Origin: Limnochorda pilosa
Lineage (GTDB): Bacteria > Bacillota > Limnochordia > Limnochordales > Limnochordaceae
Direction: 5' to 3'
Assembly (NCBI RefSeq): GCF_001544015.1
Contig: NZ_AP014924.1
Location: 682,001-746,000 of the forward strand
Length of the DNA: 64,000 bases
Shown: piece after piece, positions 11,443 through 14,663 of the stretch
Layout: each line of letters starts with the position of its first letter
Numbering within the stretch: position 1 is the first letter of the stretch
Translations under genes and position numbers: made by a program
Notes under the pieces: generated by a model
Told to the model about the DNA's origin: nothing
The model's input: the letters and a program-made list of their open reading frames with translations, nothing else
Databases searched by the model: none

Positions 11443-11805
11443 GTGGCCGATGCGACCGCCTTTCCGGCGGAGCCGGAGGCGCTCTCGTGGGCGCACGTGC
11501 CCCCCAGGCGCCCGCACCCGGGCATCGAGACCCGGCGGGTGGACGGCCAGGGCATGACCCTGGTCGAGTACCGGTTCGATCCGGCGGCCCGCTTTCCCGT
11601 CCACCACCACCCCGAGGAGCAGGTCTCGGTGGTGACGGGGGGCTCGGTGGTCTTCCACGTGGACGGGCGCGAGGTGGAGCTGCAGGCCGGCCAGATGGTG
11701 CGGGTGGCACCCCACGTGCCCCACGGCGCCACGGCCGGGCCCGCGGGAGCCACCATGCTCAACGTTCTGGCCCCCCGCCGGAGGGGCGACGTGGTGTACG
11801 ACTGA
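11443..11805 (+). CDS. small cupin-domain protein
   Basis: A 120-residue single-domain cupin. Motif 1 reads FPVHHHPEEQVSVVTGG, with three clustered histidines and a glutamate for metal binding. Motif 2 is GQMVRVAPHVPHGA. The GTG start is 5 bases after the permease stop and uses the AAGGAAGGGAG that overlaps the end of that gene, so the cupin ends the aminotransferase-TRAP operon. Such small cupins are often isomerases, dioxygenase-like enzymes or sensors acting on the transported compound; which applies here is unknown. Confidence 0.85.
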   Translation: MADATAFPAEPEALSWAHVPPRRPHPGIETRRVDGQGMTLVEYRFDPAARFPVHHHPEEQVSVVTGGSVVFHVDGREVELQAGQMVRVAPHVPHGATAGPAGATMLNVLAPRRRGDVVYD

Positions 11806-11821
11806 AGCCGGAGCAGCCGCG

Positions 11822-11841
11822 TCGCGAACACTCGCGAACAC
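11822..11841 (+). repeat. tandem 10-base direct repeat upstream of arsR promoter
   Basis: TCGCGAACAC occurs twice head to tail with no spacer (11822-11831 and 11832-11841), ending 9 bases before the -35 element of the arsR promoter. The position suits an activator or second regulator site, but it is only 20 bases long and could be a chance slippage duplication. Confidence 0.4.
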
Positions 11842-11850
11842 CCGTCCCGG

Positions 11851-11879
11851 TTGACGCGTCGCCGTCCGCGAGCTATGCT
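11851..11879 (+). promoter_or_regulatory. arsR promoter
   Basis: TTGACG (11851-11856), a 17-base spacer and TATGCT (11874-11879) give a strong vegetative promoter 46 bases before the arsR GTG. The operator lies just downstream. Confidence 0.7.
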
Positions 11880-11885
11880 GGGAAC

Positions 11886-11913
11886 GACTTCAAGGATTGT
11901 CGAAGTCCTGAAG
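11886..11913. promoter_or_regulatory. ArsR operator, copy 1
   Basis: GACTTC-N10-GAAGTC (11886-11907) is an inverted repeat just after the -10 box. Positions 11897-11913 (TTGTCGAAGTCCTGAAG) recur as a perfect 17-base reverse complement at 12280-12296 before the YceI gene. A site repeated in front of the regulator and of a neighbouring gene is what an autoregulating ArsR repressor would use. Confidence 0.6.
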
Positions 11914-11924
11914 GCAGGGTCGTC

Positions 11925-12218
11925 GTGGATCCAGAGGAGCGGGAACTGGTACGGGTTTATCGGGCGCTGGGGGATCAAACGCGGCTGGCGATGGTCCGCC
12001 TCCTGGCCCGGCGGGAGGAGATGGGGTGCGGCGAGCTGGCCGAGGCCCTGGACCTGACGCGGCCTACCCTCTCGTACCACACCCGCATCCTGGAGGAGAG
12101 CCGGCTCATCGACGTCCGCAAGGAAGGCGCCTACCGCTTCTACCGGCTCAGGCGGGCGGACGTGGGGCGGTGGGCCCCCGCCGTTCTGGGCACCCTCAAG
12201 GGAGACATAGAGTCCTAG
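11925..12218 (+). CDS. ArsR/SmtB family transcriptional regulator
   Basis: A 97-residue winged-helix repressor: RVYRALGDQTRLAMVRLLARR, then ELAEALDLTRPTLSYHTRIL (recognition helix) and RKEGAYRFYRL (wing). One cysteine (MGCGEL) is present, but no CxC metal pair, so metal sensing is not evident; it may respond to another signal. The GTG start is set by AAGGCAGGG 6-7 bases upstream. Paired operators upstream of this gene and of the YceI gene suggest it represses both. Confidence 0.88.
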   Translation: MDPEERELVRVYRALGDQTRLAMVRLLARREEMGCGELAEALDLTRPTLSYHTRILEESRLIDVRKEGAYRFYRLRRADVGRWAPAVLGTLKGDIES

Positions 12219-12243
12219 GGATCTGGGCGGCGGAGGGAGAGGC

Positions 12244-12260
12244 CCCAGCGACCCGCTGGG
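12244..12260 (+). terminator. hairpin between arsR and the YceI gene
   Basis: CCCAGCG-ACC-CGCTGGG is a perfect 7-base stem with a 3-base loop, 25 bases after the arsR stop. It lacks a following T-run, so it is at best a GC-rich attenuator or RNA-processing hairpin. Confidence 0.35.
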
Positions 12261-12279
12261 CGGTGTTGAGCCCTCGGGA

Positions 12280-12296
12280 CTTCAGGACTTCGACAA
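12280..12296. promoter_or_regulatory. ArsR operator, copy 2 (upstream of YceI gene)
   Basis: CTTCAGGACTTCGACAA is the exact reverse complement of 11897-11913 and lies 28 bases before the YceI start. It also holds part of two spaced GACTTC copies (12278-12283 and 12286-12291). Confidence 0.6.
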
Positions 12297-12324
12297 ATAC
12301 TCAAATACTCTGGAGGGATGCAGC

Positions 12325-12894
12325 GTGGCCACCGAAGGGCAGCAGGCAGTCGGAACGGGCCAGGAGACGACCGTCTGGACCATCGATCCGGCGCACACCA
12401 CCGCCGAGTTCTCCGTGAAGCACATGATGATCTCCACGGTGAAAGGGCGCTTCGGTTCGATCGAGGGAACGGTGACGGGCGACCTGGATGACCCCACCCA
12501 GGCCGCGGTCGACGTGAAGATCGACGCGGCCTCGGTCGACACCCGCAACGACCAGCGGGACGCGCACCTGCGGTCCGCGGACTTCTTCGACGTGGAGCAC
12601 CACCCCCACCTGACCTTCAAGAGCCGCCGGATCGAGCGGGCGGGCGACGACCGCTTCAAGGTGGTCGGCGACCTCACCATCCGGGGCGTGAGCCGCGAGG
12701 TGGTCCTGGACACCACCTTCGAGGGCCAGGTGAAGGATCCATACGGCAACCAGCGGGCGGGTTTCAGCGCCGCCGCCAAGCTCAACCGCAAGGACTTCGG
12801 GCTCAACTGGAACGCGTTGCTGGAAGCGGGCGGCGTGGTGGTGGGCGACGAGGTGAAGGTCGAGATCCACGCCGAGGTGACGCGTCAGGGCTAG
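12325..12894 (+). CDS. YceI family protein
   Basis: A 189-residue lipocalin-like beta-barrel. It begins TTVWTIDPAHTTAEFSVKHM, contains SVDTRNDQRDAHLRSADFFD and ends with the GVSREVVLDTTFEG and FGLNWNALLEAGG segments, all hallmarks of YceI. Family members bind isoprenoid-like amphiphiles. There is no signal peptide, so this copy is cytoplasmic. The GTG start has CTGGAGGG about 10 bases upstream. It lies behind the second ArsR-type operator, so it is probably induced together with the regulator. Confidence 0.93.
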   Translation: MATEGQQAVGTGQETTVWTIDPAHTTAEFSVKHMMISTVKGRFGSIEGTVTGDLDDPTQAAVDVKIDAASVDTRNDQRDAHLRSADFFDVEHHPHLTFKSRRIERAGDDRFKVVGDLTIRGVSREVVLDTTFEGQVKDPYGNQRAGFSAAAKLNRKDFGLNWNALLEAGGVVVGDEVKVEIHAEVTRQG

Positions 12895-13172
12895 CCGCGT
12901 GCGGACCCTCGGGTGGCTGGCAGGGCGGAGACCCCGGTGCCCGGCCCACGGGTGGCGGGGGGCTCCGCCTGCTGGCGGTCCACGGGCGACGCCTAGGAGG
13001 ATTCGGGTGATGCGATCGTGAATCCCAAACGTGTAGGCCACCCTTCCCCCGCCTTTGGGACGTTACCCGGAACCTCGTGTGGGCAGGATGTTTACCACGC
13101 TCCCCCTTAGCATCGCACGCGGGGCGAGATAGCGCGCACGCGCGAGCCACCAGTGCTCGAAGAGGTGTTCGC

Positions 13173-14663
13173 ATGGACCCAAGCGTCGTGTTCACGCTCT
13201 CCGTCGCTGCGGTGGTCTTGTGCGCGGGGATCTTTTCCACCAAGCTCGCCTCTCGCATCGGTGTCCCGGCGCTGGTGCTCTTCATCGCTGCCGGCATGGT
13301 CCTGGGCAGCGACGTGCTGGGACTGATCTACTTCGATGACGCACGGCTGGCCCAGCTGGTGGCCACCGCCGCGCTGGTCGTGATCCTCTTCGAGGGCGGC
13401 CTCCAGACCCGCTGGTCGCAGATGCGGCGCATCCTGGCTCCTTCCGTGACGCTGGCCACCCTGGGCGTGGTGGTCACCGTGGTCATCACGGGAGTCTTCG
13501 CCTGGAGAACGCTGGACCTGGACATTCCGATGGCCATGCTGCTGGCGGCCACCGTGGGCTCCACCGATGCGGCCGCCATCTTCGCCGTCTTGCGGGACCG
13601 GCAGATCAAGCAGCGCCTGAAGGCCACGGTGGAGGCCGAATCAGGCCTGAACGACCCGATGGCCCTCTTCCTGACCCAGATCTTCCTCACGTGGGTCCAG
13701 ACGGGTTCGTTACCCATCGGTCAGGCGATTCTGCTGCTGATTTGGCAGATGGCCGTCGGCCTGGCCATCGGTCTGGCGATGGGGAGGCTGGTCTCCCTGG
13801 TGGTCCTTCGGGCCCGCTTCGACTCGGGCGGCCTCTACCCTCTCCTCCTCCTTGCCAACGCCCTCCTCACCTTCGCTGTCGCCACATGGGTCCAGGGCAG
13901 CGGGATCGTGGCCGTCTACGTGCTCGGCATCGTCTTGGGCGGCTCGGACCTTCCCTACCGGCAGAGCAGCATTCGATTCCACGAGGGCACGGCCTCGCTT
14001 GCTCAGATCATCATGTTCAGCCTTTTGGGCCTTCTGGTCTTCCCGAGCCGTATGGTGCCGGTCATCGTTCCCGGCCTTCTCTTGGCTGCGGGGCTCATGT
14101 TCATCGCCCGCCCCGTCGCCGTCTGGCTGTGCACTCTCGGGACGGGATACAGTAAGCAAGAGATCCTGCTCCTCGCCTGGGCAGGGTTGAAGGGGGCCGT
14201 CCCGATCATCCTGGCGACCTTCCCTCTGGTGGCCGGGGTGCCGCAGAGCGACCTCATCTTCCACATGGTCTTCTTCGTGGTGCTCACGTCCGCTCTGATC
14301 CAGGGATCGTCCATCTCCCTCCTGGCCAGACGACTCGGCCTGGTGGAGGCCACGTCGAGGCCCAAGCCCATCTCCCTCGAGCTGATCGCCGTGGAGAAGT
14401 CCAACGCCGACCTCATCGAGGTGGAGATCACGCCGGGGACCGACGCGGAGGGCAAGCAGCTTGCGCAGTTGAACCTCCCTGCGAACGTCACCGTCAGTGC
14501 CATCGTCCGCCACGACAAGGTGGTCACGCCCCGAGGCGTCACCCGTCTGGAGGCTGGCGACATCCTCTTCGTCCTGGCTGAGAGAGGTCAGCGGGAGCAC
14601 GTGACGGACTTCTTCGCGGGCGAGGAGGAGTTGCCTGCGCCTGGCAGCGCTCCATCGACGTAG
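13173..14663 (+). CDS. CPA1-type potassium(sodium)/proton antiporter with TrkA-C domain
   Basis: A 496-residue antiporter of the CvrA/NhaP2 type. It has about 12 hydrophobic segments, with the family stretch VILFEGGLQTRW, the ion-path sequence AESGLNDPMALFLT, and WAGLKGAVPIILATFPLVAG. From about residue 390 a soluble RCK/TrkA-C domain follows (LIEVEITPGTDAEGKQLAQL...LEAGDILFVLAERG), which in relatives binds nucleotides to gate transport. ATG 13173 follows AGAGGTG. A 278-base gap precedes it with no recognisable riboswitch. It is likely monocistronic. Confidence 0.93.
   Translation: MDPSVVFTLSVAAVVLCAGIFSTKLASRIGVPALVLFIAAGMVLGSDVLGLIYFDDARLAQLVATAALVVILFEGGLQTRWSQMRRILAPSVTLATLGVVVTVVITGVFAWRTLDLDIPMAMLLAATVGSTDAAAIFAVLRDRQIKQRLKATVEAESGLNDPMALFLTQIFLTWVQTGSLPIGQAILLLIWQMAVGLAIGLAMGRLVSLVVLRARFDSGGLYPLLLLANALLTFAVATWVQGSGIVAVYVLGIVLGGSDLPYRQSSIRFHEGTASLAQIIMFSLLGLLVFPSRMVPVIVPGLLLAAGLMFIARPVAVWLCTLGTGYSKQEILLLAWAGLKGAVPIILATFPLVAGVPQSDLIFHMVFFVVLTSALIQGSSISLLARRLGLVEATSRPKPISLELIAVEKSNADLIEVEITPGTDAEGKQLAQLNLPANVTVSAIVRHDKVVTPRGVTRLEAGDILFVLAERGQREHVTDFFAGEEELPAPGSAPST

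Follow-up and report, generated by a model that had tools for sequence, protein, structure and literature searches.

YceI proteins are widespread and bind lipids and quinones, and little is known of how they are regulated. In Limnochorda pilosa, a short sequence in front of a gene for an ArsR-family regulator returns in inverted orientation in front of the neighbouring yceI gene. This raises the question of whether the two sites are operators through which the regulator controls both itself and YceI. We addressed the question in a stretch of 64,000 nucleotides of this genome (the window, numbered from its first letter) and in related genomes of the class and the phylum.

An inverted pair of sites around arsR

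The sequence TTGTCGAAGTCCTGAAG occupies positions 11897-11913 of the forward strand and its exact reverse complement lies at 12280-12296, confirming the repeat reported in a preliminary description of this DNA. Both copies are non-coding, as was stated there, and lie outside the arsR and yceI reading frames: the first ends 11 bases 5' of the arsR GTG (11925) and the second falls inside the gap, the 106 bases that separate the arsR stop (12218) from the yceI GTG (12325). We found no further copy in the window at up to 3 mismatches, a search in which 100 shuffles gave a mean of 0.04 matches and in no case two. The genome-wide search proposed at that stage returned the same two sites alone (up to 2 mismatches in 3,817,036 bases), and the pattern read backwards, our control, had no match in the whole genome. 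A scattered repeat element is ruled out by this genomic count of two copies. For the inverted similarity between the arsR leader and the gap, none of 1000 dinucleotide shuffles of the latter came up to the real value, nor did any of 1961 GC-matched windows taken from this genome. The claim that 17 bases form the unit did not hold: the functional unit is likely longer, an imperfect palindrome of 24 bases, present at 11889-11912 and 12281-12304.

The arsR gene (11925-12218, forward strand) encodes a 97-residue winged-helix regulator of the ArsR/SmtB type with one cysteine, Cys35. Its winged helix-turn-helix sequence places it in that family, with matches over the cut-off to PF01022 (43 bits) and PF12840 (48.5 bits), a score of 72.5 bits against NF033788 (cut-off 55), and 24 matching PDB sequences at E <= 1e-5, SmtB and CzrA among them. 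The best of these is 7txm, recorded as 'Transcriptional regulator', which we take to be PyeR. The yceI gene (12325-12894, forward strand) encodes a 189-residue YceI-like lipid-binding protein whose YceI domain scores 186.1 bits against PF04264 (cut-off 23.7). The same genome carries a second, weaker YceI gene (G000:C1:360116-360628, L086; 62.6 bits).

A sigma-70-like promoter for arsR, TTGACG-17-TATGCT, lies at 11851-11879 on the forward strand and is the sole promoter-like site on either strand of positions 11780-13200, where shuffles gave a mean of 0.0. Since neither a yceI promoter nor a terminator passed the scan of this region, yceI is probably transcribed from the arsR promoter, and the two genes may be linked by co-transcription. 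Two short tandem duplications are also present at the locus: TCGCGAACAC occurs twice at 11822-11841, just 5' of the arsR promoter, and CAAATACT twice at 12294-12309, between the second site and the yceI ribosome site.

Conservation of the two sites

An orthologue of this ArsR at E <= 1e-20 is found in 4 of 72 genomes of the class, namely the window's own genome (G000) and three relatives (G001, G006 and G012). In all four, yceI adjoins and follows arsR in the same order and orientation. The relatives' ArsR proteins are 60-68 % identical to the window protein and their YceI proteins 61-75 % identical over 151-189 residues. The bases TTGAC are invariant across the four aligned arsR leaders; a promoter comparable to the window's passed the scan in G001, and a full arsR promoter did not pass in G006 or G012, TTGAC notwithstanding. 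More distant ArsR matches are common (E <= 1e-14 in 164 of 398 genomes of the phylum), and among the loci retrieved for such matches (L001-L064) a YceI gene is found at those of the four orthologues only. A profile search of genome contigs with the ArsR alignment returned nothing beyond the contig of G001 and a weak match in Rothia. The best match outside the orthologues (L037, E 4e-28) is a distant relative whose leader holds an inverted repeat of the TTTGAT type; the gene downstream resembles, by eye only, one for a flavodoxin or FMN-reductase.

The comparison of orthologous loci, which had been suggested as a check, shows the arsR-side site in all four. This site, operator 1, lies in the leader of arsR (11889-11912, forward strand); it is an imperfect palindrome of 24 bases, TTCAAGGATTGTCGAAGTCCTGAA, and holds most of the first 17-mer. 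The pattern TTYRANNNTTGTCRAANTNNYGAA is common to the four leaders with 0 mismatches and starts 36, 36, 36 and 35 bases 5' of the arsR start codon, while its distance from the promoter varies (9 bases in the window versus 14 in G001). Its right end reads GAAGG or GAAAGGG and adjoins the ribosome site, a position that may account for the constant spacing to the start codon. At up to 2 mismatches the pattern is confined to this locus in G000, G001 and G006 and has one further match in G012, with 2 mismatches; the backward control gave one match, in G006. A 16-base core searched in 15 genomes has one match in G004 and two in G005, with three control matches overall, and these two genomes have no ArsR orthologue at E <= 1e-20.

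Self-complementarity in the 24-mers amounts to 6 to 8 of 12 pairs, a number that letter shuffles reach in 150 to 1446 of 20000 trials; operator 1 itself has 7 of 12. For comparison, 3.4 % of all 24-mers in the window have at least 7 pairs and 10.6 % at least 6. An autoregulated ArsR-type operon is expected to have a conserved imperfect palindrome at the promoter of its regulator, and the arsR leader carries one.

A single gene flanked by exact inverted repeats might also suggest a movable or invertible arsR cassette bounded by those repeats, or sites that serve another regulator. We consider this highly improbable, as conservation of the motif follows this arsR in all four orthologues, the orientation of arsR to yceI is constant in all of them and the repeat has no other copies in the genome.

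The site in the gap, operator 2 (TTGAGTATTTGTCGAAGTCCTGAA, 12281-12304, reverse strand), holds most of the second 17-mer and differs from the 24-base pattern at 2 positions. Its dyad has 7 of 12 pairs, reached by 284 of 20000 shuffles. When 1.4 kb of the window were scored with a leave-one-out profile made from the other three genomes, operator 1 ranked first (25.7) and operator 2 second (22.2); the next-best score, 12.3, was operator 2 read on the other strand. As the profile owes nothing to the window and still puts its two sites at the top, both probably serve the adjacent ArsR as operators.

The relatives differ in their yceI-side sequence. In local alignments of the leader with the inverted gap, the real pair scored above every one of 1000 shuffles for G000 and likewise for G012, and its score was reached by 37 (G001) and 55 (G006) of 1000 shuffles. 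Against genomic windows the score was reached by 0 of 1961 in G000, 0 of 4286 in G012, 310 of 856 in G001 and 783 of 3342 in G006. The G012 copy is divergent, needs a 2-base gap in the alignment and is missed by the ungapped profile; in G001 and G006 no copy is recognisable by the alignment, genomic-window or profile tests. The mirrored pair, as far as these sequence comparisons reach, is real in the window and probable in G012 as a variant or relic; in G001 and G006 it went undetected.

Two ideas from the preliminary description are affected. That the sites are ArsR operators is favoured by an arsR-side element kept in all four operons with yceI following in each. That the mirrored pair links ArsR to YceI is overstated, the second site being clear in the window only; the link may be one of co-transcription. 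Since that site is not general among the relatives, the mirrored pair does not define the regulon.

The same distribution could mean that operator 1 alone works and that the copy before yceI is a duplicate without function or in decay, the more so as no yceI promoter passed the scan near it. Against such decay, the window keeps 17 of 17 bases, and 5 of 7 dyad pairs persist among the 7 bases beyond the 17-mer; on balance we regard this explanation as unlikely.

Alternatively, the complementarity may act in RNA, with the leader pairing with the gap across arsR in an arsR-yceI transcript and the long-range duplex tuning translation or stability. The window offers 17 perfect pairs, and the predicted mean numbers of leader-gap pairs in the four genomes (24, 16, 22 and 23) are reached by shuffled gaps in 0, 1, 0 and 1 of 60 trials and by shuffled leaders in 2, 4, 3 and 0 of 60. 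The pairing also persists when arsR is replaced by 60 A. Pairing that is strong against shuffles is weaker against genomic windows: the duplex energy holds against GC-matched windows in G000 (1 of 1961) and G012 (10 of 4286) and is weak in G001 (81 of 856) and G006 (143 of 3342). The ribosome sites show no consistent effect across the four genomes, the unpaired fraction with and without the leader being 0.50/0.41, 0.46/0.35, 0.37/0.32 and 0.40/0.41 at the yceI site and, with and without the gap, 0.32/0.28, 0.22/0.32, 0.46/0.47 and 0.24/0.44 at the arsR site. Furthermore, conservation of the leader motif is itself accounted for by a DNA operator. We find regulation by such a duplex very unlikely, and we would hardly expect a duplex conserved in the four genomes in which one sequence serves as both DNA operator and RNA bridge; if true, the bridge would couple arsR and yceI expression. 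By eye only, T-to-C differences look excessive in the paired blocks; as the blocks were chosen by pairing, we do not count this as evidence.

A putative autoregulated arsR-yceI operon

We therefore favour an autoregulated arsR-yceI operon in which ArsR would repress through operator 1 and operator 2 would add repression of yceI, and give this reading a probability of about 0.72. An ArsR dimer would occupy the 24-base imperfect palindrome just 3' of the arsR promoter, blocking transcription of arsR and, through arsR, of yceI. The inverted copy in the gap would repress yceI further as a roadblock to read-through or, alternatively, by occluding a weak local yceI promoter. ArsR would be freed, and YceI raised, by an inducer, perhaps a small reactive compound modifying Cys35. 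Gene order, conservation of operator 1 and the fit of operator 2 to the shared motif are observations, and from this arrangement we infer binding, repression, co-transcription and a role for the second site; the reactive inducer and the part played by Cys35 are speculative and rather doubtful.

Cys35 is the sole invariant cysteine of the four ArsR orthologues; it is the only cysteine at all in the proteins of the window and G001, and those of G006 and G012 have one extra cysteine each, unshared and outside the C-terminal helix. In relatives such as L007 and L046 the sequence before the recognition helix is CVC, the CxC pair of metal ligands, and Cys35 corresponds to its middle place; the orthologues read GCG, GCG, GCA and GCA there, and the metal ligands are therefore missing, in line with the original remark that this ArsR has no obvious metal site. 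CzrA and SmtB bind metal through Asp and His ligands in alpha-5. The C-terminal helix of the orthologues has no conserved His, and in the window protein it lacks His altogether. Sulfur sensors of the two-cysteine type (BigR, SqrR, HlyU) conserve a cysteine towards either end of the protein. Among the four orthologues only Cys35 is invariant, and the window protein scores 40.3 bits against the BigR model (cut-off 155).

By analogy, we guess that this ArsR senses thiols or electrophiles, a guess encouraged by three precedents. PyeR (PA4354) of Pseudomonas aeruginosa is an ArsR-family autorepressor of pyeRM-xenB, an operon that protects against stress and is linked to hypochlorous acid (PMC7950407); like the window ArsR it belongs to a short operon, and its target genes differ. 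MgxR (Bxe_B3018) of Burkholderia xenovorans is a one-component TetR-family regulator, unrelated to ArsR, whose operon is induced by the electrophile methylglyoxal and includes a YceI-family gene as in the window, the other operon genes being different (PMC4349456). The YceI-family protein BcnA/LcoA of Burkholderia cenocepacia rises in response to pro-oxidants and antibiotics; it differs in being secreted and paired with a cytochrome b561, and we saw no mention of an ArsR gene beside it (PMC9113575).

Like the autoregulated ArsR/SmtB operons, the locus has a small winged-helix protein first in the operon and a palindromic operator near its own promoter. It departs from the metal-type operons in lacking the CxC pair, in having yceI as target instead of an efflux or detoxification gene, and in having, in the window, a second inverted operator before the target gene. 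We take it for an ordinary autoregulated operon of the ArsR kind whose target is undescribed. Within the open-licence literature, where a single paper names both YceI and ArsR, the ArsR-yceI gene pairing seems not to have been studied before, which fits the earlier suggestion that it was undescribed; most subscription journals lie outside the scope of that search.

Regulators beside yceI

To place the locus in a wider context, we looked at the neighbours of other YceI genes. YceI matches occur in 13 of 72 genomes of the class, and a gene for an ArsR, MarR or HxlR regulator lies within 1.5 kb at every one of the 12 strongest loci (L067-L078): ArsR at 4, MarR at 2 and HxlR at 6, with a MarR gene also at L077. 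In the wider phylum the link is looser, as 10 of 16 strong loci (L104-L119) have a regulator (HxlR 9, MarR 1) and 6 have neither. Near the weaker loci L079-L088 and L120-L126, phmmer found no ArsR, MarR or HxlR gene. Nine representatives from the class and the phylum were checked by Pfam and agreed; the remaining assignments are by phmmer only.

The HxlR proteins that we inspected have a cysteine near the N-terminus. Known thiol-sensing HxlR regulators likewise carry a cysteine in the N-terminal region, and we found no report pairing YceI with HxlR among open-licence papers. At the strongest loci of the class, unrelated regulators seem to stand in for one another next to yceI. The presence of three unrelated small regulators at these loci suggests that induction of YceI is a recurring need served by interchangeable sensors, and the arsR-yceI locus provides a testable control circuit for YceI.
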